DNA of 64,000 nucleotides. Source: Lichina pygmaea. Lineage: Eukaryota; Ascomycota; Lichinomycetes; Lichinales; Lichinaceae. The position numbers and the translations under genes are program-made. Shown here one piece after another: positions 15,934 through 41,966 of the stretch; position 1 is the stretch's first letter, and each line of letters starts with the position of its first letter. The notes under the pieces are model-generated. The model worked only from the letters and a program-made list of their open reading frames with translations. It made no database searches and was not told the origin of the DNA. The DNA is taken from positions 1,488,001 to 1,552,000 of the forward strand of contig OY730175.1 of assembly GCA_963422465.1 (NCBI GenBank), given 5' to 3'.

Positions 15934-18900
15934 TCACAGAGATGATAGGTTTTCTGGTAAGAGTTGGTGTGCTAAGTTAAACTGGTCTAGTCTTTTCAAA
16001 GACATAAACCAGAGAAGAAATTCTTTAAGCACTTTAGGCTTTTGAAGTAAAGTAGAGAAATTGTAGGAAAGAAAAGTGGCTTGCTGTCTTTGAGTAAGAA
16101 ACTTGTTACAAGGGAAAGTAATATGTTGAGCAGTCTCTTCTCCAAAACCACAGGAACATAGAGGGGATTGGAAGTCAGGAACATTTACTCTGAAAAGAAA
16201 GCTGGCTAGTCCTATCCTTGCTGATAGAATCTGCAAGTAAAGACTAGCTTCAGCTTTTCTCAAGTCTTTGAAAACTTTGAGATTTTTCCTTTGGGGTAGT
16301 CTGCAAAATAGCTCCCAGACTGGAGAACACTTCTGTCTGTTTGCCTGCCATCTGGCTTCCCACTCTTTCTGAAACACTTCTTGAAATTGTTTCTTAGAGT
16401 AATCTTGGTTAGTGGTTAGTTCTTCTAGCTATCTTGCTTTCCAGTTAGGTGTGATAGTAGACAGAGACTTTGGAGGTGTTCTCAGAGTAGAAACAAAAAC
16501 AGTGATCTGGGAAAAGAGCTTATAGAGAAGTGAGGAGAGAGGATTAGAAGAAGTATTAGAAAAATAGAAAGATTGTAGGAAAGTTGCTGTTCTAAATTTG
16601 AAATAAAGATCAAGAGATGGTAGGAATAGTTCTCCTTCAATAAGAAATGTAGGAGTAGCTTTGAAGACACCTCCTATAGTTTTTAGACACTTAGTCTGGA
16701 AAAGATTTAGAGAAGAAATATTAGAAGGTTTTTTGTGGGGATTGAACCAGACTCCTACTGCATAGCTGAGAAGTGATCTCAGTATTGCAGTGTAGACAAG
16801 TCTAGCAGAGAGAACAGGTAGACCCCATGTAGAAAAAGTAGTTCTGGAAAGTGCTGAGAAAAACTTGGAAGCTTTCTGTAACATGATTTTCTGGTGTTTT
16901 TTCCAGAGAAGCTTGGAATCATAGTGTAGTCCCAGAATACACACTTCTTCCTTAGACTGTAGTACCACTTCTCCAAGTCTTAGACTGAGCTGAAGATTAT
17001 CTGTTCTTCTTCTAGAAAAATAGAGAAGTTCATACTTTTCAGGTGCAAACTTCATTCCATGTTTTCTTGCCCAGTCTAAACACTTGGAGTGAGTAGACTT
17101 TAGTTTCAGAAGATTGCTTTTAAGAGAAGAGGAAAATGCCAGAAGGTTTGTATCATCTGCAAAGCCCAGAGTTGATACACCTTTCTCTGGTGTATGAACA
17201 ATATTATGAAGATCTGAAATATAGAAAAGAAATAAAATAGGAGAGAGAGGTGAACCTTGAGGGACTCCACAGTGTACTGGAAAAAAAGAAGACTCTGAAT
17301 CATCAAAAACAAGAGAGGTTTTTCTTTGAGTAGTGAAAGAAAAGATCCAGTTAACAAACCAGCTGGGGATTCCTTTTCTCTCCAGGATTTTCTTGAGAAT
17401 TTCTGGCAGAACTCTATCATAAGCTTCTGAGATATCCAGAGAAAGAAGACTGGCTACCATTCCTTCCTTCCAGACTTTTTCAACTTGGGAAGTGAGTAGA
17501 AATAGTGCAGACTCAGTTGATCTTCCTTTTCTGAAGCCTATCTGGATTTCTGGTAGCAGGTTTTCTTTCTCAGCCAGTTCACTTAGCTTTGTGGCTGCCA
17601 GAGCTTCCATCAGCTTCCCAATTGTGTTGAGAAGTGCTATTGGCCTCCAAGCTTTGGCATAGCAATAGGATCCTTTGCTAGGCTTTCTCAAGCATATTGT
17701 TCTGGCTGCTTTGTATCTGTCAGGGAAATATTCTAGCTTCCAGCAGGCCTCCAGAACTTTGGCTATCTTTTCATTGAAAGAGTCTCCTAATACCTTTAGA
17801 AATCCATTGGGTAGAGTGTCTTTCCCAGGAGCTGTAAAAGGTTTTTTCTTTTTCAGAATATTGTGGATATCTTCTTTGGAGATTTCCTGAGATAGCTGGT
17901 GTTGTTGGTGGTTGGCTGGCTGGTCCTGGGATTCTGGTACTGGCTGGAGAGGTAGAGGGAAGAACTAGGTTTTGAATACTTCTACTTTTTCTGTGAAAGT
18001 TCTGGCAGTTTCTCCATCTTGCTTTGTGAGCTCTGGAATAATTGGAAGTTCTGGTGGTTTGCCAGCTTTTTCTTTACCCCACTTGGCTATTTTCCAGTGC
18101 TTTTGTGTTTCAGCCAGGTTCTGGAGTTGTTCTCTGAATGTCTTTCTTTTAGCATTCTTGATCAGGTGTTTTTTTCCTTTATTACCTTTTCAAGTTTGTA
18201 GACTGGTTCTTGGTTTTGGAAGACTTTTCTTCTTAGTTTTCTTTCCTCTTTAATTTTCTCTTTAATCTCTTGGTTCCACCAGGGAACAGTGTACTTTGAG
18301 TCTCTCAGAGGTCTTGTTGTCTTGTCAGCCAGTTCTTGAAGAGCTTTGTCCAGGTTCTCCAGATAGCTGTCCACTTCCTCTCTGTTAAGTATTGGTGGAA
18401 TAGGGGGAAGATTCTTAGCTTCTTTCTTGACTTGGTCCAAATCTAGTGTTCTCCAGTTTCTTTGGTGGGTTCTGGCTTTCTTTGGTGTTTCTAGACTTAG
18501 AATTGTCTGAACTGGTCTATGGTCTGAACCTGTGTAGAAGTCTAGGTTAATCTGGGAAGAGATAAAGAAATTAAGAAGTGATATAGAAATAAAAGATAAG
18601 TCAATAGCAGAGAAGGGAGGCTCTGCCAGTGTTCTTGCTCTTGTTGGTGTGAAAGGTGCTATTGCCAGCTCTAGTCCTTGATCATCTGTGAGTTCTTTGA
18701 ACTTAGTAGCTAGTTCAGAGTAGAGTTGGGAGGATTTTGACCAGGATGGGTGGTGGAGGTTTGAGTCAGTCAGAAGAATATGTTCTCCTTCTTTCTCCAG
18801 TGCCTGAGCCAGTACATCCAGTAGAGCTTCTGCTGATGCTCTGTAGTTTTCCTGGTTTGTAGGTGTGAAGTACAGGTTATGTACCCAGAACACTTTTGCT

Positions 18901-19193
18901 TGCACTCTTATCTCCAGTGATGTTAAATCCTTGCTCCAGAACACAGGGGTTATAGCTGACCTCTGTATTCTTCTGTTGATTAGAATCAGAGTTCTCCCTA
19001 ACACTTGGTCTTGAAGAGGGTAGAAGGCTGAGAAGACTGTTGAGGTACTTGTTTCCTGGTATGGATTTCTCCATGGTTCTTGAAGTGCAATCAGATCCAC
19101 TTCCTGGAGTCTGGGGTTAGCTAGTAGAAGATCTTGACATGTCTGGCTTTTCTGCACATTATACTGGAGAAGGTTGAGAGTTGGTGTACTCAT
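15934..19193 (-). pseudogene. LINE B ORF2: endonuclease-reverse transcriptase (decayed)
   Basis: Starts at ATG 19193, which overlaps the ORF1 stop as TGATG. The intact first block (to 18162) is an APE-type endonuclease: LLQYNVQKSQ, ALQEPW, LLTDSNLHHPSWSK, GSDHRPV. The frame shifts before the reverse transcriptase (17691-16429), which keeps KAWRPIALLNTIGK, GFRKGRSTESAL, SLDISEAYDRV, GVPQGSPLSPILF and FADDTNLLAF. A stop and a further shift separate the C-terminal CCHC-like motif (CSCGFGEETAQH), about 16377-15934. There are at least three breaks. No RNase H domain lies between the reverse transcriptase and the zinc motif. Confidence 0.9.
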
Positions 19194-21324: not shown

Positions 21325-24300
21325 CTATCCTCTCTCTCCAAGGGTTCTGTCCCCAGATCCTTTTTGTTCCTGCTCCTCTTTTGTCATGAACCAAGGCCAG
21401 ACAACTTGAACTTGTCGTCGCAGTTTTCTTTCTTGTTGTATTGGCAAAATAGGCAAGAAATCAAAAATTGTATGCGGTGCTTGTTGTCACGACCACACCC
21501 AGTGTGTCGTGAGCTCCGCATCATCTTTTTGTTGTCGGTGTGTTGAGAAGGGTTGTCGCTGTGACCTTCATCTCTCAGAATCAGAATGGAAGAAGATGGA
21601 ACTTGAGTGTGAGCAGCTTGAGGCTCAGCTGCGGGAGACTGATGACCAATTGTCAAAGTTGCTTCCCTGGCAGATCTGCCTCCACTGGCAGCTGGGTCAT
21701 CTCTCACAGAAGGAGGCTGATGCCATCTGTCATGAGCTGTCCGCCATCAAGGATCAGGAATCCCTTGATGCTCAGGAACAGAAGGCTCTCTGTGTTATCT
21801 GTGAACAGGAGGCCAGTCAGGCTGCTGCTCCACTGTCCTTTGAGAACATCTTCTCTTCAGAGGCTTTGGCTTCTCTCAAGCTGTTGTCTCTGTCAGACCT
21901 GGTTGCTGCGGGTTTGCTTGGTGGTAATCCACCAGCTTCTGGTTCATCGCAGGGCTGAAGTTCTTGGTTGGTTCCTATGAATTCTCCTCTTCGTCAAATC
22001 CTAACCACTTCACCAGGTACTCAGTTTTCTGTCTGTTTCTTCGACTATCCAGGATTCTTTCAACATTGTACTCTTCTTTGTCATCCTTGAAGTTCCATTC
22101 TGTCTTGATCTCTGCGTCACTGGGTGCTGGTTCAAGCAGTGAGACGTGGAATACTCAGTGTATCCTTGCTTTTTGTGGTAGTCTCAGTTGATAGTTGACC
22201 TTCCCAGTACACTTCTTGATTTCGAATAGTCTGATTCGTACATGATCCAGCTTTTTGCTCAGTCACTTTGAGCACAGGTTTTTTGTTGATAGGTAGACCT
22301 TATCCTCTTTTTCCAGGGTTGGTCCCTTCAACCTTTTGTTGTGTAATCAGCGGGCGGTGGTGTTCTGGGCACAGTCAATTGTTGTTTTCATCATCTCGTG
22401 CATAGCAGCGAGTTTGCTAACATCAACAACATTGCCTTCTGCTGTTGCCTGCCATCAGGGGTTTCTTCTGTAGTTCGCAAAGAATGGTGTTGTCCCTGTC
22501 ACACTATGTTGCTGGTTGTTGTACACAAACTGGGCTATTGGTAGCAGTTCCACCCAGTTATCCTGCTGGTGGTTGACGTAGTGTCATAGATACTGCTCTA
22601 TTGTCTGGTTTGTCCGCTCAGTTTGTCTGTCAGTTTGTGGGTGGTAGGCTGTTGACATCCTTGTATCAATACCAAGTTGCCTTGTCCACATGTTCCAGAA
22701 TTTCAAGGTGAAGAGTTTGTCTTGATCTGAGATGATTGTCTTTGGTAGCTCTCGGTGGCTTACCAGCTCTTTGAGTAGGATGCTCGCAAGTTTGTTCGCG
22801 GTTCCTGACTCTTTCCACAGGACCAGGTGGGTGTATTTGGTGAGCTTGTCAACAACCACCAAAATGCTATCGTATACCACCTTTGTTGCTGGGTCTGTTG
22901 ACTTTGGCAACTTGACCACAAAATCCATTGTGATAGTTTCCCATGGTGCCTCAGGTAGGTCCATTTGCTGTGCCTGCCCATAGGGCTTATGTCTTGATGG
23001 CTTGTTCTTCGCACACTGTTCGCAGTTGCGAATGAACTCTGTCACCTTGCGCTTCATTCTGTCAAAGTGGTAATTCCTTTAGATTTTCTCCAAGGTTTTA
23101 TCTTGCCCAGGGTGTCTGTGCAAAGGCCTGTCATGGTGCCTCCGGATCACCTTCTCTTGTGCTCTTTCTGGCACAATTTCCTTTTTGTTTGCTGTCTTGT
23201 GGCCAAGGGTAAGGAGTGGACTCTTTGTTTCTGTTGTTGCCAGTTGGGGTTGGGCATAGACCAGGGTTTGTCCTTTTGTCGCTAGGATTGGGTGTTCCTC
23301 TGTTGTTTTCTCATCCATCAGGTCTGGTCGCCTGCTGAGTGCGTCCACTCAAGCATTTTCAGTGCCCTTCCAGTAGAGGATTTGGAAGTTGTATGATGCT
23401 AACAACTCTGCCCATTGAACTTGCTGTCAGTTTAGCTTCTTTGTTGTTGTGAAGTAAGCTAGGTTCTTGTGGTCTGAGTACATGTCTACTGTGTATTTTG
23501 CCCCCTCCAAGTAAGGCCTCCATTCTTGGAATACATCGACAATTGCTAGCAACTCTTTGTTGTGAACATCATACCTCAGTTCTGGGCTGGAGAACTTTCT
23601 TGATTGATACGCGACAGGGTGTAAGCAGTTGTCAGTGTCTGGTTGACACAAGCAGGATCCCAATGCTTGGTCTGAGGCATCAGTTTCCAGAATGATCCTC
23701 TTCTCAGGATCAAATGATGCCAAAATAGGTGTGGAGATGAATTTATCCTTCAACTCCTGGAAGGCCGCTTGTTGGCTCTCTCCCCACCTGAAAGATTTGT
23801 TCTTTCTGGTTAACTCTGTCAAGGCTGCTGCTGTTCTTGAGTAGTCCTTGATGAATTGTCAGTAGAAGTTTGCAAATCCTAGGAAGGATTGTACTTCTTT
23901 GAGGTTTTTGGGTGTTGGCCAGTCTTGTACTGCTGCTGTCTTTGTGTCATCTATTCGAATTCCTTCTGTTGTCAGGATCAACCCCAAATATTCCACTTCT
24001 TTCATGTGGAAAACACTTTTATCAAGGTGTAACCTCATGCCTGCTTTCTGGAGCGCATGTAGGATTGTTTTGACATGCTGTTTATACTCCTCCAAGGTTC
24101 CATTGGTGTATACCAAGACATCGTCGATATAAGCGGTGACAAATATATCCAGGTATTGTCAGAGGACAGTGTTAATAAGTGATTGGAATGTCACCGGTGC
24201 ATTTGTAAGGCTGAATGGCATCACAGTATACTTGTAGTGCCCGTACCTTGTACGAAAGGCTGTCTTCCATTCCTCAGTCTTTCATCCTAACCAGGTTGAA

Positions 24301-26716
24301 AGTGCCTCAAATGTCAAACTTGGTAAACTATTTGGCTCCTTGGATCTGGTCTTGGATTTCTGATATCAATGGCAGCGGGTAGCAGTTTTTCACTGTAATC
24401 ACATTTAGCCACCGATAATCAACACACAGTTGAAGTTTACTGTTTTTCTTTGGCATGAACAATATCAGGTATCCAGCTAGTGATGTTGAAAGTCTTATGA
24501 ACCCTTTCGCTAGGTTCTTGTCCAGGTAGTCTCTCAGGGCCTCAAGCTCTTTTGCTGACAGAGTGTAGATAGGGCTGTGTGTGGGTTTTTTTCTGTCTTC
24601 CAGTGGAATCTTGTGGTCCCACTCCTGATGTTCCGGTAGTGTCACGATCGCTGTTTCTTCAAACATCTCCTGGTATTCTTTATACTCACTTGGCAACTGC
24701 GGTGCCTGAGTCTCACCCACAGTGTCTTGCGTGGTGCAAAGTTGTTGTGTTCAGGGTTTCATCCAGGCCACACAGGCCTGCCCATGCCAGTGGTATTTCT
24801 TCCAGCGTGTCAGTGAGATTTCTTTGATCATCACCCCTGGTTCTGATGTGACCAGTGTCTTATCTGGAAAGACTAGTTGCCTTCTTGTCCAGTCAATCCT
24901 TGGGTTTTGTTTTTCCAACCATGGAAGTCCCAATATAACTTTGTGTGGTATTCAGACCAAGTCAAATTCCTCTGTTCCGATTGTCATGCCATGGACACTC
25001 AGTCTCAGGCTCTTGGTCTCCTTTGTCACTTGTCCCTTGTCTTTGGAGAGTGGTGTTCTGTCCACCACTGTCAACTGGTAGGGGTCTCTCTTGCCTTGGA
25101 CTGGAACCTTGTTTCTTCTGGCAAAGCTTTCTGACATGAAGTTGCCAGTCGCACCAGAGTTGATCATGGCCTTAGCCAACTGCCCATTGACTCTGATCTT
25201 GATGTGAAAGTGCAGGCTGCAGGCTGTTGCGTCAAGGCTTGGCTTGACTCCTTCCTCCCAGGGTGTTGTCTTGCCTGCTCTTCCGACCCCAGTTTTGAAA
25301 AGTGCTGCTAGTTTTTTGAGCCACCTAGGCCCTGGGCCTGACGCTCTACCGTGTGTCATCTGCATCGTGTGGTGAAGCATCGTTCCCACAGATCTTGGTT
25401 GCAATCATCAGCAATGTCTCTGACCTGGGTGATGCTGAGAGTATTGTCGACCCATCGTGACACTTGCATCTCCCCTATTTCTGATAGAGTTGCATCCTGT
25501 TGTTGAAGGACAGGTTTGTCAGGGACTGGTGGTGGCTGGGCTTCTTTGTTGTTGACCTGTTCCTCTATATAGCTGGTTGTGTCAAACTCGGAGATCAGGT
25601 CATCCTCCCAGTGGATTCTGTTGACCTTCCTTCAGATCTTGTCAAGGTGGTCCAAGGTTTCTTGGAGCATGTTCTCAAGTTTTTCAGCGTGTTGTCAGAG
25701 GTTGTCCTCCTCTCTGAGGAGTACTGCCTCAGGGTGATTGTGGGGCAGTGTGTCTTGGGGGGCCCTCTGGGGCTCCTCCATCTCCCTGCCTTTCCAGGCA
25801 CTCGTGGTGTTCAACTGCTTCCCTTTACCCTTCTTGTTCTTCTTCTTGCTTCTGCAGTTCACTGCAAGGTGGCCCACTTTCTGACAGTTGTAACACTTCC
25901 GTGTCTCCTTCTTTTGTGGTTCCACCACATTGATTTCCATGGGTACCAAGCTGTAGTTATCTTTGGCGGGTGTTGGCTTTTTCTTCACCCATAGTTTCAT
26001 CTGCTTGCCTTGCTTCTCAAGCTCTCTCTCAAACTGTCAGTTGTCGATGCGAGCTGCAGTCTTGATTATTTTGTAGAGCTCAGTTGGTCAGTCTCCTCGT
26101 GCAATGTCATCCTTGACTTGTTCCTTAAGGCCTTGGTAGAATAGTGCTGTTAGTGCACTGTCCCCCCACTGGGTCCTCACTGCTAGTTGTTGGAACTTCA
26201 CCACAAATTCCAATGCTGATCCAGTTTGCCGCAGTGCTTGGAGCTTTTGTTCCACATCCCTTTCCTTGTCAAGGATCCCAAACATCTTCCTCATGGCTGT
26301 CTTAAAGATTTTCAAGCTTCCCATAACCTGTCAGGTATTGTCTTCTTGCTCCTTGGGGTCTGCCTGATTGTCTAGGTAATCCCTTAAGTAGATGTTGAAC
26401 CAAGTGAAGGCTGGTCCTTCCAGGTAGGAGGCTGCAAACAGCACCTTCTCCTGGTCTGTCAGGAACTGGGCTGTGTTGAACCTATAGTAGAGCTCCAGTT
26501 GTGAGAAGAACAACTCCAGTCCTCCCCTGGATCCATCGTACCTCTTCGGGGCACCTACCTTTAAGGGCTTCAGGGGTAGGTTAACAATAGGTGCTGCCTG
26601 GACAGCCTGGGCCTGAGCCACCTGAGCAGCTTGGGCTTGGGCTGCCTGAGAAGGGGTAGGGCTTCGTGGATCCACTATCGTATCAAGTCAGTGTCCTATG
26701 TGTTAGAGGCTGAAAC

Positions 26717-27315
26717 TGTTAAAGGCTGGGCCAGGTTCACACAGAAGGCAGTACAGTCTGTTGCTTCGCAGGGTGGATTCTAGACAGGGACTTGGTAGAG
26801 AAATAGACAGGTGGGGTAACTCTCCTGTGCTATTGTCTCAGTACGATGTGTGCATTAGTGTTCAGCCTGGAGAGCTAATCCCTCTGGGCTCTTTGGGGGG
26901 TCTTTATACAGATGCCCCAAGGGGGGGGGTCTCCTCGAGGGGTATCATCCTTTTGCGTGGACAAGCTCCTCGCTTAGCTCCTGCTCGTCCACCGGACAAG
27001 CTCCTCGCTTAGCTCCTGCTCGTCCACCGGACGAGCTCCTCGCTTAGCTCCTGCTTGTCCACCGGACGAGCTCCTCGCTTAGCTCCTGCTCGTCCACCGG
27101 ACGAGCTCCTCGCTTAGCTCCTGCTCGTCCACCGGACGAGCTCCTCGCTTAGCTCCTGCTTGTCCACCGGACGAGCTCCTCGCTTAGCTTCTGCTTGTCC
27201 ACCGGACAAGCTCCTCGCTTAGCTCTTGCTCATCCACCGGATCAGTCGGATGTTGTTCCGTATGACTAACACTCCTCCCTCGCTTACCTGGGCTGTTCCG
27301 GCCTAGGCCTTAACA
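26717..27315 (-). repeat. LTR-I, 5' LTR with 35-bp tandem repeats
   Basis: Same LTR with about eight copies of the 35-bp unit (26960-27240). Its greater length equals three extra units. Confidence 0.9.
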
Positions 27316-28800: not shown

Positions 28801-29776
28801 TGTTGCGGTCTGTACCGTGCTGTCCTAACCGAGTATAGGATTAAGGGCAAGATGTGGAAGGCGGGTTGGTTCTCGCAGAAGAGGAGTGTCAAGGAGTGTG
28901 AAGGGGTTTGGTGGAATGTGGTGGTGGTGACACCTGATCAATAGCTTCGTACAAAAGGATTGTATTGAAGTAGATCTAGTTGTCTGGATCACAACATGAG
29001 TTGAAGATAATCATTCCATAAGGGAACTATCGCCAGACTATATAGTGCTGGTGGGGCGGCATGGTGTAGCGGGAAGCTGGTGAGAGTTTCCCACTACGTG
29101 GCACCCATGACCCGGAACTAGTGGTGTCAGGCCTGGAGAACCTGACTAAACTAGTTGTCAGTTCAAATCTGACCCACCCCACATTCTGCCACAAAAACCC
29201 CCGAGATTCATAGAACTTGTCTAAGATGTACTCCTCGCAAGATGTATGAAAACTCCCAAGAAATAGCTCACCCAATATCTGTCAAGATCCACAAAACCCT
29301 CATTACTGTGGTTTTCCTATTTCCCCTACAGAGTTTGGGGTTTTCCCACAGTACGTACACTACAAACCACAGGGTGTACAGTAAATACGTGAGGTCCCTG
29401 AGTCAAGTCTACCAGAGACAAAAATCCTTCAAGAAGTTCTGCATGGCTTAACAGCCGAATCAGTGTAAGAATCAAATCAAATCAAATCAAAATCAAAATA
29501 TAGTGCTGGTCCGTCAAGACAATCAAGATTGTCTTGACAGTCTTGATGTCGAGACGGGTGAGATTGTCTCAACAGTCCCACCATGTTATACACCCTGCGT
29601 CAAGACTGGTGAGATTGTCTTGATGCTTCATGCATGCTGCGTCAAGCCGCCTGTGTGTGTCTTGACAGTCACGTGACCCCTTGTTGGTTGGTCACTTGAC
29701 TTCCATAGTGTCCTCTTGCCTGGCCCGTGGCCTGATTGCCTATAAATAAGTGGCTCCCATCCCAGGGGTTGTAACA
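28801..29776 (-). repeat. solo LTR of the element-III family, carrying SINE 1
   Basis: Ends TGTTGCGGTC and GGTTGTAACA match the reversed LTRs of element III. The 5-bp duplication TCCAC is on both sides (28796-28800, 29777-29781), and LTR-I has the uninterrupted empty site. No internal region remains, as after LTR-LTR recombination. Without SINE 1 and its duplication it is about 518 bp. Confidence 0.9.
29053..29497 (+). mobile_element. SINE 1, tRNA-headed, LINE-like tail
   Basis: A 445-bp non-coding element with the 13-bp duplication ATATAGTGCTGGT (29040-29052, 29498-29510). The head resembles a tRNA, with pol III A-box-like TGGTGTAGCGG and B-box-like GTTCAAATC, and an acceptor-like pairing GGGGCGG with CCACCCC. 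The tail is (AATCA)n-like. It is about 97% identical by eye to SINE 2. Its last 40 bp resemble the LINE 3' end. Confidence 0.92.
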
Positions 29777-32700
29777 TCCACCAGCTTCTGGTTTATCACA
29801 GGGCTGAAGTTCTCGGTTGGTTCCCACAAATTCTCCTCTTTGTCAAATCCTAACCACTTCACCAGGTACTCAGTTTTCTGTCTGTTTCTTCGACTATCCA
29901 GAATCCTTTCAACATCATACTCTTCTTCGTCATCCTTGAAGTTCCATTCTGTCTTGATCTCTGTGTTGCTGGGTGCTGGTTCAAGCAGTGAGACGTGGAA
30001 TACTCAGTGTATCCTTGCTTTTTGTGGTAGTCTCAGTCAATAGTTGACTTTCCCAGTGCACTTCTTGATTTTGAATAGTCTGATTTGTACATGGTCCAGC
30101 TTTTTGCTCAGTCACTTTGAGTGCAGGTTTTTTGTTGATAGGTAGACCTTATCCCCTTTTTCCAGGGTTGGTCCCTTCAACCTTTTGTCGTGTAATCAGC
30201 GGGCGGTGGTGTTCTGGGCATGGTTGATTATTGTTTTCATCATCTTGTGCATAGCAGCAAGTTTGTTAACATTGACAATATTGTCTCCTGCTGTTGCCTG
30301 CTATTGGGGGTTTCTTCCATAGTTCGCAAAGAACAGTGTTGTCCCTGTCACACTGTGTTGCTGGTTGTTGTACACAAACTGGGCTATTGGTAGCAGTTCC
30401 ACCCAGTTATCCTGCTGGTGGTTGATGTAGTGTTGTAGATACTACTCCATCGTCTGGTTTGTCCACTCAGTTTGTCTGTTGGTTTGTGGGTAGTAGGCTG
30501 TTGACATCCTTGTATCAATGCCAAGTTGCCTTGTCCACATGTTCCAGAATTTCAAGGTGAAGAGTTTGTCTTGATCCAAGATGATTGTTTTTGGTAGCCC
30601 TCAGTGGCTTACCAGCTCCTTGAGCAGGACACTCGCAAGTTTGTTCGCGGTTCCTGATTCTTTCCACAGGACCAGGTGGGTGTATTTGGTGAGCTTGTCA
30701 ACAACCACCAAAATACTATTGTATACCACTTTTGTTGCTGAGTCTGTTGACTTTGGCAACTTGACCACAAAATCCATCATGATAGTTTCCCATAGTGTCT
30801 TGGGTAGGTCTATTTACTGTGCCTGCCCATAGAGCTTATGTCTTGATAGTTTGTACTTTGCGCACTGTTCGCAGTTGCAGATAAACTCTGTCACCTTGCG
30901 CTTCATTCTGTTGAAGTGGTAGTTCCTTTAGATTTTCTCCAAGGTTTTATCTTGCCTGGGGTGTCTGTGCAAAGGCCTGTCATAGTGCCTCCGGATCACC
31001 TCCTCTTGTGCTCTTTCTGGCACAATTTCCTTTTTGTTTGCCACCTTGTGGCCAAGAGTAAGGAGTGGACTCTTTGTTTCAGTTGTTGCCAGTTGGGGTT
31101 GGGCATAGACCAGGGTTTGTCCTTTTGTCACTAGGATTGGGTGTTCCTCTGTTGTTTTGTTGTCTATTAAATCTGGTTATCTGCTGAGTGTGTCCACTCA
31201 AGCATTTTCAGTGTCTTTCCAGTAGAGGATTTGAAAGTTGTATGATGCCAACAACTCTGCCCATCAAACTTGTTGTCAGTTTAGCTTCTTTGTTGTTGTG
31301 AAGTAAGCTAAGTTCTTGTGGTCTGAGTACACGTCTACCGTGTATTTTGCCCCCTCCAAGTAAGGCCTCCATTCTTGGAATATGTTGATGATTGCTAACA
31401 ACTCTTTGTCATGAACATCGTACCTCAGTTCTGGGCCAGAGAACTTTCTTGATCAGTACACAACAGGGTGTAAGCGGTTGTCAGTGTCTGGTTGACACAA
31501 GCAGGATCCCAATACTTGGTCTGAGGTATCAGTTTCCAGAATGATCCTCTTCTCAGAATCAAATAATACCAAAATAGGTGTGGAGATGAATTTATTCTTC
31601 AACTCCTGGAAGGCTGCTTGTTGGCTCTCCCCCCACCTGAAAGATTTGTTCTTTCTGGTTAACTCTGTCAAGGCTACTGCTGTTCTTGAGTAGTCCTTGA
31701 TGAATCATCAGTAGAAGTTTGCAAATCCTAGGAAGGATTGTACTTCTTTGAGGTTTTTGGGTGTTGGCCAGTCTTGTACTGCTGCTGTCTTTGTGTTGTC
31801 TATTCAGATTCCTTCTGTTGTCAGGATTGACCCCAAATATTCCACTTCTTTTGTGTGGAAAACACTTTTATCAAGGTGTAACCTTATGCCTGCTTTCTGG
31901 AGCACATGTAGGATCTTCTTGACATGCTGTTTATACTCCTCCAAGGTTCTATTGGTGTATACCAAGACATCATCAATGTAAGCAGTGACAGATATGTCCA
32001 GGTATTGTCAGAGGACAGTGTTAATAAGTGATTGGAATGTCACCAGTGTATTTGTAAGACTGAATAGCATCACAGTATACTTGTAGTGCCTGTACCTTGT
32101 ACAAAAGGCTGTCTTCCATTCCTCACCATCTTTCATCCTAACCAGGTTGAAAGCACCTTGAATATCAAACCTGGTAAACTATTTAGCTTCTTGGATCCAG
32201 TCTTGGATTTCTGATATCAATGGCAGTGGGTAGCAGTTTTTCACTGTGATCACATTTAGCCGCCGATAATCAACACACAGTCAAAGTTTGCTATCTTTCT
32301 TTGGCACAAACAATATTGAGTATCCAGCTGGTGATGTTGAAAGTCTTATGAACCCTTTCACTAGGTTCTTGTCCAGGTAGTCTCTCAGAGCCTCAAGCTC
32401 TTTCACTGACAGAGTGTAGATGGGGCTATGTGTGGGTTTTTTTCTGTCTTCCAGCAGAATCTTGTGGTCCCACTCCTGATGTTCTGGTAGTGTTGTGATT
32501 GCTGTTTCTTTGAACATCTCCTGGTATTCTTTATACTTATTTGGCAACTGCAGTGCCTGAGTCTCACCCACGGCGTCTTGCGTGGTGCAAAGTTGTTGTG
32601 TTTGGGGTTTCATCCAGGCCACACAGGCCTCCCCACACTAGTGGTATTTCTTCCACTGTGTCAGTGAGATTTCTTTAATCATCACTCCTGGTTCTGACTT

Positions 32701-32796
32701 GACCAGTGTCTTATCTGGAAAGACTAGTTACCTTCTTTTCCAGTCAATCCTTGGGTTTTGTTTTTCCAACCACAGAAGTCCCAATATAACTTTGTG

Positions 32797-32908
32797 GGCC
32801 TGCAACGACTCGAACCTCCACGTGGTGCAGGCTGGGAACCTCGGGGCAGTCGATGGCGGGCGGCTTCCCAGGCTGCTCGTAGTCGCTGCACCAAGAGCTA
32901 ATCGAGTC
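32797..32908 (+). ncRNA. HDV-like self-cleaving ribozyme at the 5' end of LINE D
   Basis: Numbering from G1 at 32797. P1 is GGCCUGC (1-7) with GCAGGCU (31-37), 7 bp including the family's G1-U37 wobble. P2 is GACUCGA (11-17) with UCGAGUC (32902-32908), 7 bp. P3 is ACC (18-20) with GGU (28-30), and its loop UCCACGU resembles HDV (UCCUCGC) and CPEB3 (UUCACGU). GG after P1 can pair with CC of that loop (P1.1). P4 starts with CUC/GAG and continues GG..GCAG with CUGC..CC. The joining strand before the P2 3' side is CUAA (32898-32901), fitting CNRA; C32898 would be catalytic. Predicted cleavage before G1 coincides exactly with the junction between target duplication and element. Known in R2 and some other LINEs; here read by eye from one copy. 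Confidence 0.86.
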
Positions 32909-33911
32909 ACCAGTCGAGCTGCTGGTGTTGCGGAGTGACAGGCCACCGGAGGTGTCGCGCAGGCACCCTGGACACCCCCGTGAAACAGCTACAGCAGAAC
33001 AGAGGACTGCGACCAAGCTTGGGAGATGAAAACCACCCGACAGACAACTACCGTGTACACTACGGCCTGAAGCCATCCCGACAGCTGGTGGATGTGAAGT
33101 CTAGGTGTCTGATAGGGCACCTCTGGAGTAGTCGAGAGGAGTTCTCGTCAAGTCACCCTCCTAGCAGAGTCTCCAGCTAACGTGTGAGGATCTGCTAGGG
33201 GGGGGAGTGGCCTTGGCACTGTGGTGTTGTTAATCGAACAGAGACCACCTGTTAAAGAAGGAGAGTGGTCGTACAAGGAGACGTCGCCGCTCCAGTGCCT
33301 AAGGGCTGTGTGATAGCCAAAGTGCTGGCTTGATGGTTTTGCCTAAGGCCTTGCCATGAAGTCTCTTCGTACAATCCACAATCTGGGGCCGGGGGACTGG
33401 GTTATCCAGTGGGCCAACAGGTGCAACTGAGGCCCCACAGGCGACAGCGGACCAAGGAAAACTCCTCCCTACTTGGTTAGTGGGCTGGAAAGGCAGCCCT
33501 GCAGGTGCTGGCACGGCCTGCAGGGTCCGTAAGGCCTGCGAGGCATGGTCGGCCTTTGTACGAGAGATCTGCGAAGGTAACACAAAACAGTTAACAACTG
33601 CGAGGCGTGGCATATAATAGCAGTGACGGAGGTAGGGCCTGGGCCTACTACGAGACTGTCTATATGGCCCGAGAGGATGGATGCACATGCCGGTTTGTAC
33701 GGAGTGCAGGCTTAGGCTGCAAACAACAAGCTCAGGGAGCAAACTACAGTTGGAGCGTGGGCTCTGGGCTGGTGACCCAGCGCTCCGAAGCAGGATCCCA
33801 GGGGTGAGCACGTACGGCGGAGTGCAAGAGACCTCGGGACTGTGGGAAAGTGTGGTAGAGACCCTGTGGGGGGGTGCCAACTCTACACTATGTTCTGGCA
33901 TAGTACGACTG
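32909..33911 (+). other. CpG-rich 5' module of LINE D, absent from LINEs A and B
   Basis: About 1 kb between the ribozyme and the 5' UTR shared with other copies. Its base composition is unlike the rest of the LINE (many CpG), and I recognise no protein. It could be the native promoter/5' UTR of a ribozyme-bearing subfamily, or a piece gained by template switching from another RNA. Confidence 0.6.
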
Positions 33912-34321
33912 TGGCTCTGAAACCACTCAAACCTTAAGGTGAAAACCCATCACCTTTGAGAACCACGCGTGTTTGTCAAAAGTTGTGATCTTGAATCCCC
34001 GACCTTCTTCTTCAACAACCAGCAATCTACCCACAACCAGAGAGAGAGTCTCAGGATAAGAGGAATGGTTAGAGTCTGACTGACTCTGGAGCTAGCAGAG
34101 TCTTTGGCTCAAGGAAAGTCTAGATAGGGGGTCTGGTCTCTAGTCTAGGTTAATACTTCTAGCTTTGCCCAGAGCTTAGTTGGAAAAAGCTGCCCAGGAA
34201 AGTCTAGTCTTGGGGATTGGTCCCAGGACTAGATTATTACTGCTGGGAAACCAGGTGACTCTTCTTTCTGGCAGTACTCTGCAGACAGAAAACACCCAAC
34301 CAGTGCCAAACAATCTCTAAC

Positions 34322-35713
34322 ATAGCTCCCAAGAAGAAAAAACCCACCTCTTCAGAAAGTAACACCAGAGCTACACCAGCTATACTCTCCCAACCAGCTT
34401 CCAGTCTGCCTAGCACCCAGTCCAGCTCTCCTACCCTCCAACCAGCTCCCCAGAATAACTACAAACTAGTAGACTTCTGGATCAAAACTCAACCAGTCCC
34501 AGAATCTATTCTGAAAAGCTGGGAAAATATCAAAAAGAGCTTCTTCTCTACAGAAGCCCAGTCTAGCTCTACTGGCCTCACCAACAGAATCTTCCAGGAG
34601 CTGGAGAATATCAACAAGTGGCTGGACAAACAAGAAGCCAAGCCATCATATGCCCAGGCTGTCCAAAAATCTATTCCAGCACAAATCCCTCTACCTGCAA
34701 GAATTCTCAAAGAAGTTCTTGTACATCCTGGTATCCAGCCACCTGACATGGCTAATAGAACTCACATCCAGCTTTTCCAGGCTCTTCAAGACAGACTACC
34801 CAGCCCCTACAACAAGCAGGTCAGAGCAGTAAGGAAACTTCCTTCAGGGGATATCCTTATTAACACAGAAAGCCAAGAGACTAAAGTCTTCCTAGAGAAA
34901 AACCCTGCCTGGGTATCAGCTATCTTCACAAAGGAAGCAACCATCCAGCCCAAGAGATTCCCAGTTCTGATCCATGGAGTCAGAACAGAAGATATCCAAC
35001 CTGAAGACCTGGAGAAAACCTGCCAGATAATCCAGAACAGCAACCCATCTCTGAGCAAGCAAATCACCATCCTGAGAGCCTACTGGTCTAAGAAGGCTAT
35101 AGCTCAAAAGAAGCCAGTTACCTCTCTCCACCTGGATCTGGCTACCCCTGAACAAGCCAATCTTTTGATTGAGAGTGGGCTAGTGCTGGGGCACAGGATG
35201 CATGAAGCAGAACTTTTTCTGGCAGACACAGTTATTGCACAATGTTTCAAGTGCTTTGGCTATGGGCACCAAGCACGCTTCTGCAAGAACAAAGCTGTGT
35301 GTGGTGCCTGTGGAGGCCAGCATGAAAGGAGAGCCTGCCAAGTTCCTGAACAGCTTCTCAAGCCAAAATGCTGCAACTGCAGAGGAGCTCACCCAGCCTG
35401 GGCCAGTGTCTGTCCAGTACGCCAGGAAGCAGCCAAGAAGGCAAGAGAAGCATGGAACACACACCCAGGAAAATATGAGATCCCAACAGCTACCTCTGTT
35501 CCAGCTCTACAACCCCCCCCAGTTATGTCTTTCCCTCTCTCTCAGTCTCTACCAGGGGGGAAAAAACGTAAAACAGCTGAGCCAAGCAGAAGCTCAGAGA
35601 GACTCAGAGGTGCACTCCCAGAAGTGCAAATTCTTTCTTCAAGATCAGCCAACTCTGGAGGAAAGCTACCAGCTAACTCCTTCAAGATCTTTGATGCTGA
35701 GATGTCTGCATGA
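34322..35713 (+). pseudogene. LINE D ORF1: gag-like RNA-binding protein with zinc knuckles
   Basis: The frame is open for 463 codons from the position equivalent to the LINE B start, but the start codon reads ATA (34322) instead of ATG; the next in-frame ATG is 34748. Features: a basic N-terminus (APKKKKPTSS), SYAQAVQKSIPAQIPLPARI, the RRM-like core with RAVRKLPSGDILI and PVLIHGVRTEDI, the ATPEQANLLI segment, then Cys-rich zinc knuckles (CFKCFGYGHQARFC, CGACGGQHERRAC, CCNCRGAHPAWASVC). The end is Ser-rich and basic. The stop overlaps the ORF2 start as ATGA. Confidence 0.9.
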
Positions 35714-38700
35714 AAGACACAAAGCTGACACTTCTCCAGTATAATGTGCAAAAAAGCCAATCAGTCCAAGAGCTACTGCTAGCAACCTCAGCTCTCCAAG
35801 AGGTGGACATTATTGCACTTCAAGAGCCCTGGAAAAACCCTCACCTAGAAACAAGCACTTCAACTGTTTTCTCTTCCTTTCTTCCTCTCTACTGTTCAGA
35901 GATTGGCAGAACACTTTTTCTTATTAATAAAAATCTGAAACTCTCTTCTCTTCATCCTACCTTCTGGAATAAAGACTTTGTTTCTCTTGAAATCTACTTG
36001 GAAAACTCTTCTACTTCTCTTTGGGTACATAATCTCTACTTCACCCCATCAAGTCAAGAAAACTACACAGAGGCATCAGAAGCTCTTCTCTGTTTACTCC
36101 AAAATGCTTTACAAGAACAAGGACAACATATTCTTCTCACAGACTCAAATCTTCACCACCCAGACTGGTCAAAGAAAAGAAGACTGTACTCTGAGACTGC
36201 AAACAAGTTTCAAGACCTAATGAAAGATTTAAATCTGGATTTAGCTATTGCACCTTTCACCCCTACCAGAGCAAGATCTCTTTCTGAAAAACCATGTTCT
36301 TCTATTGATCTGTCTTTTATTTCTTCTTCTCTTTCTAACTCTCTGATTTTCTCTAAAGTGGCTCTTCAGTTCTTTCATGGGTCTGACCACAGACCTGTAC
36401 TAACCTGCCTGGACCTGGATCCTCCAAGGAAAATCTGGAAACCAGAAAGAAACTGGAGAACACTGGACTCAAACCTTGCAAGAGTAGAGTGTGAGAAGCT
36501 ACACCTGCTCTTCCACTTCCAAGACAAATATGAAGTGGATGAGTACTTGGAGTATCTTGACAACTTTCTCCAAGAAATAGCAAGCAAATCCACACAGCTC
36601 CAGAAGCAATCTGGCCACTCAGTTCCCTGGTGGAATCAAGAGATCCAAAACAAGGTTAAAGAGGAAAGAAGAGTAAGAAGAAAAGTGCAAAAAAGGCAAG
36701 CAAGTCAAGAGGAACTTGAGCAAGCAACTAAGCTCAAGAAAAAGGCAGTCAGAGATGGAAAACAGAACACTTTCAGACACCAAATCCATGAGCTGGCCAG
36801 CTCTTCAAAGTTCTGGAAGCTTGCAAAGTGGGGAAAGTCCAAAGCCAACAAGACTCCTGATCTTCCTCTGGTTCCTGACCTGGAAACACAAGAAGGAATA
36901 GCCAAAACCTTTGAGGAAAAAACTAAAGCCTTCTCACAGCAGTTCTTTCCAAAAGCTCTAGTTCCAGAACCAGGCTCAGAAAGCTCCCAGACTATCTCTG
37001 AGATACAGCTCTCCCAGGAGGTAACATGTGAAGAAGTGGAGCAAATTCTGGCCAAGAAGAAACCTTTCACAGCAGGAGGGAGAGATAAGCTGCCAAATGG
37101 ATTCCTGAGAGCTCTGGGGCCTAGGTTCTGCCAAGCTCTAGCTATTCTGACTTCAACATGCTGGAAACTGGAGTACTTCCCTGAAAGATTTAAGAGTGCA
37201 AAAACAGTCTGCTTGAGGAAACCTGGCAAGGGAACCTACAATCAAGCTAAAGTCTGGCGCCCTATAGCTCTGCTAAACACAACAGGCAAGCTGATGGAAG
37301 CTATTGCTGCAGCCAGACTAAGCAAGATAGCAGAAGAAGCTGGACTATTGCCAGATATCCAGATGGGCTTTAGGAAAGGAAGATCCACAGAAGCAGCACT
37401 TTTCCTTCTAACCTCCCAAGTGGAAAAAGTCTGGAAGAAAGGTATGGTTGCATCCCTACTCTCACTGGATATCTCAGGAGTCTATGACAGAGTTCTCCCC
37501 AAGATACTACAGCAAATTCTGAAAAGAAAAGGAATACCTGCCTGGCTAGCTTCCTGGATCTACTCCTTCTGTGATAAGCGCTCTACCACTCTTGTCTTTG
37601 ATGATTCTGAGTCTTGTTCAATTCCTATTCATTGTGGAGTTTCTCAAGGTTCTCCATTATCCCCTATTCTTTTTCTATTCTACATTTCTGAATTGCATGA
37701 GACTGTGCATACTCCCTCTTCTGGTGTATCTGCCCTGGGGTTTGCAGATGATACAAATCTGCTTGCTTTTGGTCACTCCTTGAAAAGTAACCTTCTGAAG
37801 TTAAAGAACACACACCTCAAATGTCTATCATGGGCTGCAAGACATGGAATGGTCTTCTCTCCTGAGAAATATGAAATACTTCATTTTTCCAGAAGAAGAT
37901 CAGACAATCTTCAGCTCAAGCTCAGACTGGGGAATATGATTCTCAAACCAAAAGAAGAAGTGCGAGTACTTGGAGTGTACCTAGATGCAAAGCTCCACTG
38001 GCACAAACACCAGAGGATTATTCTTCAAAAAGCACAGAAAGCACTCTCTTCTCTTTCTAGAACTTCCTATTCTACTTGGGGCTTTCCAGTTCACACATCA
38101 CGTCTGGTGTACACTGCTATACTGAGATCTCTACTGAGCTATGCAGTGGGGATCTGGTTTAACCCTCTAAGAAAATCCTCCAATATCTCTTCTCTTGTTT
38201 CATTTCAAAACAGATGCCTAAGACTTATTGGGGGTGCCTTCAAAGCCACTCCTTCTTTTCTATTAGAGAGTGAGCTTTTTCTTCTACCTCTAGACCTATA
38301 CTTTAAATTTCGCACTGCCTGTTTTCTTTCTTCTATTCAAAACTCCCCTCTCAAATACTTTCTTGACAGTATCTTTTCCACTATTTCCAGCTATGCCTCT
38401 CTCTTGAAGAAACCTTTAAAGGAATCCTCAACTATCTCTCCTAAGTGGAAATTCACTTGGTTAAGTCAAATAACTACTAACCAGGCTAGTTCAAAGAAAG
38501 AACTACAAAAGCTCTTTACTAAAGAGTGGGAAGACCAATGGGAAGAGAAGAAAAGAAGAAGCTATCCAGGCTGGCAGACTTTCTGTCAAAAGCCACACAA
38601 AAACAATCTGAAGCTCTACAAAGAGTTACAGAAAGCTGAGGCAAGTCTGCTACTGCAAATCAGGACTGGAAGAATTGGTCTGGCAAGTTTTCTTTTCAGA

Positions 38701-39406
38701 GCTGGAGTTCCTGACTTCCCTACCCCACTATGTGTGTGTGGCCAAGCAGAAGAAACTGCAAAACATATCACCTCTTCATGCTCTCTTTGGGGCGGCATGG
38801 TGTAGTGGGAAGCTGGTGAGAGTTTCCCACTACGTGGCACCCATCACCCGGAACTAGTGGTGTCAGGCCTGGAGAACCTGACTAAACTAGTTGTCAGTTC
38901 AAATCTGACCCACCCCACATTCTGCCACAAAAACCCCCGAGATTCATAGAACTTGTCTAAGATGTACTCCTCGCAAGATGTATGAAAACCCCCAAGAAAT
39001 AGCTCACCCAATATCCATCAAGATCCACAAAACCCTCATTACTGTGGTTTTCCTATTTCCCCTACAGGGTTTGGGGTTTTCCCACAGTACGTACACTACA
39101 AACCACAGGGTGTACGGTAAATGCGTGAGGTCCCCGAGTCAAGTCTACCAGAGACAAAAATCCTTCAAGAAGTTCTGCATGGCTTAACAGCCGAATCAGT
39201 GTAAGAATCAAATCAAATCAAAATCAAAGTCATGCTCTCTTTATTCAAGACAAAGACAACAAGTCTCTTTTAATCCCCAAGACTTCACCACTATTATTTC
39301 AAACTCAGAGCTACTACAGAAGTTCTTGTACTGGTTTATGTCTTTGAAAAGACTAAACCAGTTTAATCTAGCTTTCAAACTCCACTATTCCCAATCCAAT
39401 ACCTAG
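35710..39406 (+). pseudogene. LINE D ORF2: APE endonuclease and reverse transcriptase, interrupted by SINE 2
   Basis: Nicks target DNA and copies the LINE RNA at the nick. ATG at 35710 overlaps the ORF1 stop. The frame is open to 38788, where SINE 2 is inserted; host-element sequence resumes at 39243 and ends with TAG at 39404-39406. Uninterrupted length would be 1080 aa. Endonuclease: LLQYNVQKSQ, ALQEPWKNP, LLTDSNLHHPDWSK, GSDHRPV. Reverse transcriptase: KVWRPIALLNTTGK, GFRKGRSTEAAL, SLDISGVYDRV, GVSQGSPLSPILF (S replaces the usual P of PQG), FADDTNLLAF. C-terminal CVCGQAEETAKH zinc motif. No RNase H domain. CpG is almost absent (none in 36001-36600). Confidence 0.93.
38789..39229 (+). mobile_element. 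SINE 2, inserted in LINE D ORF2
   Basis: 441 bp with the 13-bp duplication TCATGCTCTCTTT (38776-38788, 39230-39242). A-box-like TGGTGTAGTGG at 38798-38808 and B-box-like GTTCAAATC at 38897-38905. It is the same family as SINE 1. The insertion adds 454 bp to the reading frame, which both shifts it and brings an early stop. Confidence 0.93.
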
Positions 39407-41543
39407 ATTCTCTTCTCTTACCAGAAACTTCAAGATTCCTTGTTACATTCCCTAGTCACACTCTGCCTTCAGTTTTTATCCCTTCAAAGGTTTTCTGAAG
39501 GAGTTCACTATTAGCTAGAAGATCTGCATGGCTGTAAAGCTACTACTAGTGTAAGAATCAAATAAATAAATAAAATAAAAAAATATAACTTTGTGTGGTA
39601 TTCGGACCAAGTCAAATTCCTCTGTTCTGATTGTTGTGCCATGGACACTCAGTCTCAGACTCTTGGTCTCCTTCATCACTTATCTCTTGTCTTTGGAGAG
39701 TGGTGTTCTGTCCACTACTGTCAATTGGTAAAGGTCTTTCTTGTCTTGGACTGGAACCTTGTTTCTTCTGGCAAAGCTTTCTGACATGAAGTTGCCAGTC
39801 ACACCAGAGTTGATCATGGCCTTAGCCAACCACCCATTGACTCTGATCTTGATGTGAAAGTGTGGGCTGCAGGCTGTTGTGTCAAGGCTTGGCTTGACTT
39901 CTTCCTCCTGGGGTGTTGTCTTGCCTGCTCTTCCAACCCCAGTTTTGAAAAGTACTGCTAGTTTTTTGAGCTGCCTAGGCCCTGGGCCTGATGCTCTACC
40001 ACATGTTGTTTGCATTGTGTAGTGAGGCATTGTTCCCACAGGTCTTGGTTGCAATCATCTTGTTCAGGGTTGACCCTTTGGATGTGCATATTCTATCATA
40101 CTTCCATCTCAGACCCTGGGAACCACATCTTCTTTCTTTTCTCTAGAAGGTGTTTCTTGCAGTGGTTGTCTTTGCACACCTTCCAATAAGGTTGTCCACA
40201 GACTGCTGTTGTAGCCTGGTGTAGGTCCACTTGTGTAGTGATGTCTCTGATCTGTGTGATACTGAGGGTATCATCAACCCATCATGACACTTGCGTCTCC
40301 TCTATTTCTGATAGGGTTGTGTCCTGTTGTTGAAGGACAGGTTTGTCAGAGACTGGTGGTGGCTGGGCTTTCTTGTCGTCAACCTGTTCCTCCATATAGC
40401 TGGTTGTGTCAAACTCGGAGATCAGGTCTTCCTCCCAGTGGATTCTGTCAACCTTCCTTTGGATCTTGTTGAGGTGATCCAAGATTTTCTGAAGTATATT
40501 CTCAAGTTTTTCAGTGTGTTGTCAGAGGTTGTCCTCCTCTCTGAGGAGTGCCACCTTAGGGTGATTGTGGGGCAGTGTGCCTTGGGGGGCTCTCTGGGAC
40601 TTCTCTGTCTCCCTGCCTTTCCAGGCACTTGTGGTGTTCAACTGCTTCCCTTTGCCTTTCTTGTTCTTCTTCTTGCTCCTGCAGTTCACTGTGAGGTGGC
40701 CCACTTTCTGACAGTTGTAACACTTCTGTGTCTCCTTCTTTTGTGGTTCCACTGTATTGATTTCCATGGGTACCAAGCTGTAGTTATCTTTGGCAGGTGT
40801 TGGCTTTTTCTTCACCCATAGTTTTGTCTGCTTGCCTTGCTTCTCAAGCTCTCTCTTGAACTGTCAGTTGTCAAAGCAAGCTGCAGTCTTGATTATTTCG
40901 TAGAGCTTGGTTGGTCGGTCCCCTCACACGATGTCATCCTTGACTTATTCCTTGAGGCCTTGGTAGAATAGTGCTGTTAGTGCACTGTCCCCCCACTGGG
41001 TCCTCACTGCTAGTTGTTGGAACTTCGCCACAAACTCTGATACTGATCCAGTTTGCTGCAGTGCTTGGAGCTTTTGTTCCACATCCTTTTCCTTGTCAAG
41101 AATCCCAAACATCTTTCTCATAGCTGTCTTAAAGGTTTTCAAGCTTCCCATGACCTGTTGGGTATTGTCTTCTTACTCCTTGGGGTCTGCCTGATTGTCT
41201 AGGTAATCCTTTAAGTAGATATTGAACCAAGCGAAGGCTGGTCCTTCCAGGTAGGAGGCTGCAAATAGCACCTTCTCCTGGTCTGTCAGGAACTGGGCTG
41301 TGTTGAACCTATAGTAGAGCTCCAGTTGTGAGAAGAACAACTCCAGTCCTTTCCTGGATCTATTGTACCTCTTCAGAGCACCTACCTTCAAGGGCTTCAG
41401 GGGTAGGTTAACAATAGGTGCTGCCTGGACAGCCTGGGCCTGAGCTGCCTGAGCAGTCTGGGCTTGAGCCACCTGGGAAGGGGTAGGGCTTCGTGGATCC
41501 ACCATCGTATCAAGTCAGTGTTCTATATGTTAGAGGCTGAAAC

Positions 41544-41966
41544 TGTTAAAGGCCAGGCTGGGTTCACACAGAAACCAGTACAGTCTGTTACTTCGCAGGG
41601 CGGATTCTAGACAGGGACTTGATAGAGAAATAGACAGATAGGTAACTCTCTCTGTACTATTGTCTCAGTACAATGTGTGTATGTGTGTTCAGCCTGGAAA
41701 GCTAATCCCTCCAGGCCCTTGGGGTGGTCTTTATACAGATGCCCTGGGGGGGGGTCTTCTCTGAGGGGTATCATCCTTTTGCGTGGACGAGCTCCTCGCT
41801 TAGCTCCTGCTTGTCCACTGGACAAGCTTCTTGCTTAGCTCCTGCTTGTCCACCGGACAAGCTCCTCGCTTAGCTCCTGCTTGTCCACCGGATCAGTCGG
41901 ATGATGTTCTGTATGACTAACACTCCTCCCTCGCTTACCTAGGCTGTTCCGGCCTAGACCTTAACA
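41544..41966 (-). repeat. LTR-II, 5' LTR
   Basis: Same ends; about three 35-bp units (41783-41895). Confidence 0.88.

Follow-up and report, generated by a model that had tools for sequence, protein, structure and literature searches.

Several described systems resemble the locus reported here in part. R2 carries at its 5′ end an HDV-like ribozyme whose cut falls exactly on the 5′ element junction (PMC3774820), and in trypanosomatids the Pr77 sequence of L1Tc and NARTc is an HDV-like ribozyme at the 5′ ends of autonomous and nonautonomous LINE relatives (PMC4035085). In fungi, ribozymes of the HDV class are in print, and cleavage has been demonstrated for two of them (PMC5640933). A different kind of element is MINE of Magnaporthe grisea, in which a full-length, 1113-nt WEIRD RNA is fused to a 5′-truncated MGL LINE; according to the accessible text of PMC2104539, MINE insertions have target-site duplications (TSDs) of 10 to 20 bp, template switching occurs at GCC*A/U, and 33 chimeras are listed. 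The same text gives the function of WEIRD as unknown in 2007 and reports no solo copy; Gogvadze et al. took WEIRD for a housekeeping noncoding RNA.

The locus analyzed here lies in a stretch of 64,000 nt from Lichina pygmaea (contig OY730175.1, positions 1,488,001 to 1,552,000), referred to below as the window. It holds an insertion in which a ribozyme, a stretch of apparently noncoding sequence, and a LINE follow one another within a single TSD (Table 1). The insertion quite probably contains a nonautonomous, apparently noncoding, ribozyme-led RNA of ~1.12 kb that was attached to LINE cDNA by a jump of the reverse transcriptase (RT).

Table 1 Features of the insertion (window coordinates)
Feature	Position	Strand	Details
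Left target-site duplication	32783..32796	+	AATATAACTTTGTG, 14 bp
HDV-like ribozyme	32797..32908	+	Predicted cut between 32796/32797
P1, 5′ strand	32797..32803	+	Partner 32827-32833; GGCCUGC/GCAGGCU, G1-U37
P2, 5′ strand	32807..32813	+	Partner 32902-32908, 7 bp; GACUCGA/UCGAGUC
P3	32814..32826	+	3 bp, ACC/GGU; loop UCCACGU
P1.1, GG	32834..32835	+	Able to pair with CC 32818-32819
P4, long hairpin	32840..32895	+	Mismatch C46/A97 in the window copy
Predicted catalytic C	32898	+	Element position 102, within joining strand CUAA
WEIRD-like module	32797..33914	+	1118 nt, apparently noncoding; the ribozyme is its 5′ part
Hairpin	33888..33903	+	CTATGTTCTGGCATAG (in D2, CTATGCCTCGGCATAG); 11 nt before the module 3′ end
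LINE proper	33915..39581	+	Joined end to end with the module
LINE ORF1	34748..35713	+	321 aa; no Pfam match at E up to 0.1
LINE ORF2	35710..38805	+	Endonuclease and reverse transcriptase domains
Right target-site duplication	39582..39595	+	AATATAACTTTGTG, 14 bp

RESULTS

An HDV-like ribozyme fold in the window

Reading of the sequence confirms that window positions 32797 to 32908 make up a full HDV-like fold, and the segment is assigned to the HDV-like self-cleaving ribozymes, with cleavage itself as a prediction. P1, P1.1, P2, P3, the CUAA strand, and C32898 all lie where the first-pass annotation had put them. Together with P4, the helices form the nested double pseudoknot of the class, and the cytosine directly 3′ of P4, in the strand that joins it to P2, is the residue that we take to be catalytic in HDV-like ribozymes. 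An A at 32893 causes one mismatch in P4, leaving 38 of the 39 designed pairs formed in the window copy; among the aligned copies described below, this position is G in 30 of 30 rows of a second lineage, D2, and in 22 of the 28 other rows of the window lineage, D. The fungal variants described in the accessible part of PMC5640933 typically show a C-G pair where cleavage occurs, have a loop E within P4, and place one more nucleotide between P2 and P3; conversely, the window ribozyme has G1-U37, a plain long P4 hairpin, and a P2 that abuts P3.

A covariance-model search, named in the first-pass annotation as a check on the fold, bears it out in part. In a search of 181 bases, RF00094 aligns over the whole model at 32795-32911 (32.3 bits, E 0.0024), but the gathering score of 50 bits is not reached there or by any of the matches listed for the rest of the genome, the best of which scores 43.9 bits. 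At gathering level, an Rfam scan of the window returned no matches. At E up to 5, RF00094 was the sole Rfam match in the whole window, with a shorter alignment than in the 181-base search (32795-32869, 29.2 bits, E 3.2). Across the genome, at least 85 matches to RF00094 were obtained (86 scored of 1614 candidates), every one below gathering, and the best 30 belong to D2. A structure descriptor of the full architecture, composed with the target already known, matched one place on the two strands of the window, namely, 32797-32908, and had no match in 40 first-order Markov-simulated windows.

Two further candidates were rejected. A 75-nt RF00094 match that might have represented a third ribozyme type proved on reading to be a decayed copy of the same family. 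A search with drz-agam-1 for other HDV-like families gave a best E of 2.14, with control matches in 11 of 14 genomes; 34 of the 37 places listed coincide with known module copies. An exact pattern had no match in IMG/VR.

The predicted cut falls on the insertion boundary

The ribozyme begins with the very first base of the insertion. As the first-pass annotation had proposed, its predicted cut coincides with the edge of the 14-bp target duplication, which is present at both ends of the insertion and as a single copy of AATATAACTTTGTG at an unoccupied paralogous site (24932-24945). The flanks are paralogous to sequence around that site (21927-24945 to 29776-32796, and 24932-25409 to 39582-40059), diverged and with the element absent. 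The paralogous duplication as a whole (21927-27066 and 29776-41892) is ~91 to 92% identical and keeps the unoccupied site of the element.

Sibling copies, in which a different 5′ boundary would have spoken against the earlier reading, agree with it. The start GGCCTG, at the same G, is found in 79 of 80 fetched copies (the window copy counted), and the 20-nt upstream flanks of the 80 are unrelated, with at most 14 letters in common in any pair. When the query included 14 nt of flank, 26 of the 39 other scored copies aligned from G1, 12 began 1 to 13 nt before it, and one began 2 nt after it.

TSDs that abut G1 were identified at seven further loci, with lengths of 14 (L041), 13 (L012), 11 (L044), 11 (L057), and 12 (L061) nt and, with one mismatch, 15 nt (L006) and 11 nt (L038), in a survey for which the fetched sequence of most other loci stops short of the 3′ end of the insertion. 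Four loci were extended to look for TSDs, and a TSD was found in all four. A 12-nt TSD-like match with one mismatch at L060 is plausible and was left out of the count; at L054, a match of 11 nt with one mismatch and no A-rich tail was dismissed as chance. The triplet CTA is most frequent at −16 to −14, where it occurs 31 times in the 80 flanks; this position would be expected if the target is nicked at the TSD end that lies away from the element.

The ribozyme leads a module that is separate from the LINE

The first-pass annotation had placed the ribozyme at the 5′ end of a LINE, “LINE D.” The ribozyme does open the insertion, but the LINE starts at 33915: a search with the LINE 5′ region (query 33836-34436) scored 40 of 512 candidates, and each of the 39 scored copies other than the window copy begins at that base. 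The accompanying view that the ribozyme defines the LINE 5′ end does not survive this result, nor the presence of the module on many LINE positions. In an R2-type arrangement, most full-length LINE copies would have the ribozyme.

The first 1118 to 1119 nt of “LINE D” are common to D and D2 loci, and the shared stretch halts at ...CTGTGG. The module measures 1118 nt in D and 1124 nt in the D2 copy L041; it is broken or shortened in L049, L055, L061, and L092. Past CTGTGG, most fetched loci with a complete module go on at differing LINE positions, mostly in 5′-truncated copies, with LINE sequence that is 97 to 99% identical to the window LINE in some loci and ~66 to 94% identical in others. Among the matches listed, 60 typed junctions comprise 57 distinct strings after CTGTGG; the next letter is mostly C (47 junctions), with T in 9 and G and A in 2 each, and CC follows GTGG in 38 of the 60. 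Three pairs of loci share a junction site (L005/L030, L007/L022, and L052/L062), and L023 has two modules in a row, a D module and then a D2-like one from position 46. The window insertion has its junction at base 1 of the LINE, in a LINE copy with ORF1 and ORF2. Because the junctions vary and the LINE copies begin at 33915, positions 32797 to 33914 are regarded as a separate module, and the ribozyme most likely belongs to this hitchhiking RNA module rather than to the LINE.

In eleven loci, the continuation is mostly GC-rich and has no match to the window LINE (L002, L003, L014, L024, L026, L050, L058, L060, L064, L067, and L068). Two frames in these partners weakly resemble the end of an RT (Pfam RVT_1, E 0.054, and zf-RVT, E 0.013), and because of this weakness their nature is tentative; the partners in L002, L014, L050, L068, and others are perhaps another LINE lineage.

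The first 26 nt of the module, with up to 3 mismatches, occur at 240 places in the genome, and the reversed control occurs at none. One copy (G000:C1:540-565) is 540 bases from a contig end and possibly near a chromosome end. L009 (D) and L041 (D2), the two copies whose ORFs were compared, have no ORF of ≥60 aa in common as judged by eye; L009 has a 200-aa antisense frame.

In their anatomy, the module-LINE insertions are of the MINE/WEIRD type. As in the accessible account of MINE (PMC2104539), a full-length 5′ part of ~1.1 kb, noncoding in MINE and apparently so here, sits on a 5′-truncated LINE at variable sites, some of them used twice. A TSD, of 10 to 20 bp in MINE, spans the chimera, as it does here in the window copy and the seven loci, two with one mismatch; and cytosines mark the switch point, within GCC*A/U there and as CC after GTGG here. 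The differences are that no mention of a ribozyme was found for WEIRD in the accessible part of PMC2104539, and that 33 chimeras are listed there compared with 240 places with the first 26 nt of the module here. Neither module contains the sequence of one published MINE primer, a result that decides nothing. Compared with the ribozyme-bearing LINEs, R2 has its ribozyme as part of an autonomous element (PMC3774820, accessible part), whereas here it is on an RNA of its own that is attached to LINEs; NARTc is a truncated form of L1Tc (PMC4035085, accessible part), whereas in the window insertion blastn gives no match between the module and the LINE part.

The LINE and its surroundings

LINEs of the Tad1 clade typically have an RNase H domain. 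In the window LINE, endonuclease (EN) and RT are present, and Pfam gives no RNase H at E up to 5. An insert at 38789-39229, bounded by 13-bp direct repeats (TCATGCTCTCTTT; 38776-38788 and 39230-39242), is missing from other copies and ends ORF2 early, at 1031 aa versus open frames of 1083 aa in many copies. The insert is SINE-like, with a start that looks tRNA-like by eye and in which ARAGORN finds no tRNA, and a 97.5% copy of it lies at 29052-29495. Remains of LINEs that are ~66 to 68% identical to the window LINE are located at 16118-19172 (minus strand), where EN and RT are in separate open frames, and at 49766-51390. The window also holds a ferric reductase gene whose best named relatives, at ~50%, are from Thelocarpon and Patellaria (Pezizomycotina); another relative is at 84%. 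By these matches, the host is probably a filamentous ascomycete.

Conservation and covariation in two lineages

The mean divergence between D and D2a modules is 0.166 in a set of 56 modules that leaves out L001 to L008, L032, L049, L055, and L061, and the minimum distance to a nearest neighbor is 0.004 in D and 0.000 in D2a. A further group of module copies is D2b. Near-identical copies in two lineages that are 16% apart suggest at least two recently active sources.

For the ribozyme, 59 rows (22 distinct), chosen for resemblance to the window or for their RF00094 score, were aligned. Standard pairs fill 97.6% of the 858 cells of the 22 distinct rows, compared with 28 to 40% when the partner is slid by 1 to 3 columns. 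The seven pairs of P1 and the two of P1.1 are invariant in all 22 distinct rows and, like the catalytic C, across all 59. In P2, 92.9% of the cells are paired, and in P4, 98.0%; pair 16/107 of P2 and pair 62/82 of P4 are each G-C in D and A-U in D2. Changes on both sides occur in three pairs, a number reached by 8 of 500 shuffles; of the five measures of covariation, one (how many further pair types occur) is no higher than in the shuffles. In 20 further loci, taken from a larger number of places with an exact match to the first 26 nt and outside the 85 RF00094 matches, the eight core letters checked and the catalytic C are kept throughout, P1 has a mismatch in one (L091), and at least one pair is broken in 13.

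The D copy L010 and the D2 copy L041 differ in the ribozyme by 11 substitutions and one gap, and each forms 39 of 39 designed pairs, two of them kept through double changes. In simulations, all 39 pairs survived in 0.9% of cases under uniform and 0.6% under CpG-weighted mutation, and two or more kept double changes arose in 1.9% and 12%, respectively. Between 5 D and 6 D2 copies hand-chosen from the 59, the ribozyme diverges by 0.099 and the remainder of the module by 0.164; positions 673 to 784 of the module alignment also diverge by 0.099.

Most changes are of one type: G>A and C>T account for 382 of 422 in D and 243 of 252 in D2a. This pattern of copy decay is as expected of cytosine mutation, for example, RIP or deamination. 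The lineage-wide double changes at 16/107 and 62/82 are transitions, the type that dominates copy decay, and the covariation argument is weakened by this mutation bias and by the choice of copies. Of the compensatory changes in P1, P2, and P4 for which the first-pass annotation proposed to compare copies, those at 16/107 (P2) and 62/82 (P4) are seen, with a transition bias; P1 is invariant in the aligned rows. Overall, the retention of pairs across D and D2 gives the predicted fold moderate support.

DISCUSSION

The most likely course of events is that the module RNA gains its 5′ end by self-cleavage and that a LINE RT jumps onto the 3′ end of this RNA and copies to G1. Copies of the module would be transcribed, with read-through from upstream supplying at least part of the transcripts, and the ribozyme, to judge from the fold and the boundary, would cut just before G1 and free an RNA with a precise 5′ end. 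The uniform genomic junctions suggest that the 3′ end of the freed RNA is constant, at ...CUGUGG or ...CUGUGGC. Meanwhile, a LINE RT working on LINE RNA at a nicked target would stall within that RNA or reach its 5′ end, as the junctions and TSDs indicate, and could then jump to the module RNA at its 3′ end and copy it to G1. Joining of the cDNA end to the target would leave the TSD abutting G1, and abutting TSDs are what is observed. The window copy would represent an end-to-end jump, made from base 1 of a LINE copy that has both ORFs. We count this mechanism as supported by the fold and its Rfam alignment, the uniform G1, the abutting TSDs, the variable junctions, the LINE start at 33915, and the full set of 39 pairs in both L010 and L041; the support is tempered by the RF00094 scores below gathering, the transition-type double changes, the covariation measure that does not rise above shuffles, the way in which the 59 rows were selected, the broken pairs in 13 of the 20 further loci, the equally slow divergence of positions 673 to 784, and the GC-rich partners.

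Other explanations differ in what they make of the module and of its 5′ end. The module might be a housekeeping noncoding RNA of the host, with the ribozyme maturing a host transcript and the genomic copies being dead retropseudogene chimeras that give rise to no others. The lack of an ORF of ≥60 aa common to L009 and L041 by eye agrees with this explanation, as does the expression of WEIRD in M. grisea at 20 to 61% of Ilv5 (accessible text of PMC2104539); against it, near-identical copies in both D and D2a, together with the D2b group, suggest at least two recent sources, and we regard it as rather unlikely. It is improbable that the 5′ end is a plain transcription start and the HDV-like fold an inactive relic. 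A full-length capped RNA would likewise yield a uniform G1, and the RF00094 score is below gathering, but the cleavage site of the fold falls on the exact boundary; moreover, P1, P1.1, and the catalytic C do not vary among the 59 aligned rows, a set selected by similarity or score, and the eight core letters persist in 20 of 20 further loci.

Two more readings carry very little weight. That the ribozyme is the LINE's own 5′ end, in the style of R2, could be argued from the window copy, where the module directly precedes a two-ORF LINE copy inside one TSD. This reading is highly improbable and was rejected because the other scored LINE copies, 39 of 39, begin at 33915; furthermore, the module is attached at many LINE positions and to LINEs that differ in identity. 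A circular, viroid-like source, in which a single HDV-like ribozyme on multimers would make both ends, suits a module of ~1.1 kb that is apparently noncoding. However, a search for head-to-tail junctions returned one place, where blastn finds no similarity to either module, and the predicted folds are branched and only ~2 SD below those of 25 shuffles; a circular or multimeric source was rejected on these grounds and seems extremely unlikely.

The first-pass annotation knew of no such ribozyme for fungal LINEs of the Tad1 type. In part this stands: a literature search in which subscription journals were thinly covered found, among the papers listed, no link of an HDV-like ribozyme to WEIRD/MINE or to a fungal LINE or other retroelement. 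Fungal HDV-like ribozymes as such are already in print (PMC5640933, accessible part).

HDV-like ribozymes are known on LINEs and their shortened relatives; the one described here is on an unrelated, apparently noncoding RNA. A ribozyme on the module would account for the exact 5′ ends of such chimeras. We tentatively entertain, at somewhat less than even chances, a class of ribozyme-capped RNAs, without proteins or a LINE-like 3′ tail, that would spread through a 3′ end attracting jumping LINE RTs, with the ribozyme remaking the exact 5′ end from any read-through transcript and with WEIRD as another member. If WEIRD is a member, the class would span filamentous ascomycetes. RNAs of the WEIRD type, whose function was unknown in 2007 by the accessible text of PMC2104539, thereby gain a testable mechanism, and the window copy shows a one-step route by which a LINE may acquire a 5′ ribozyme.
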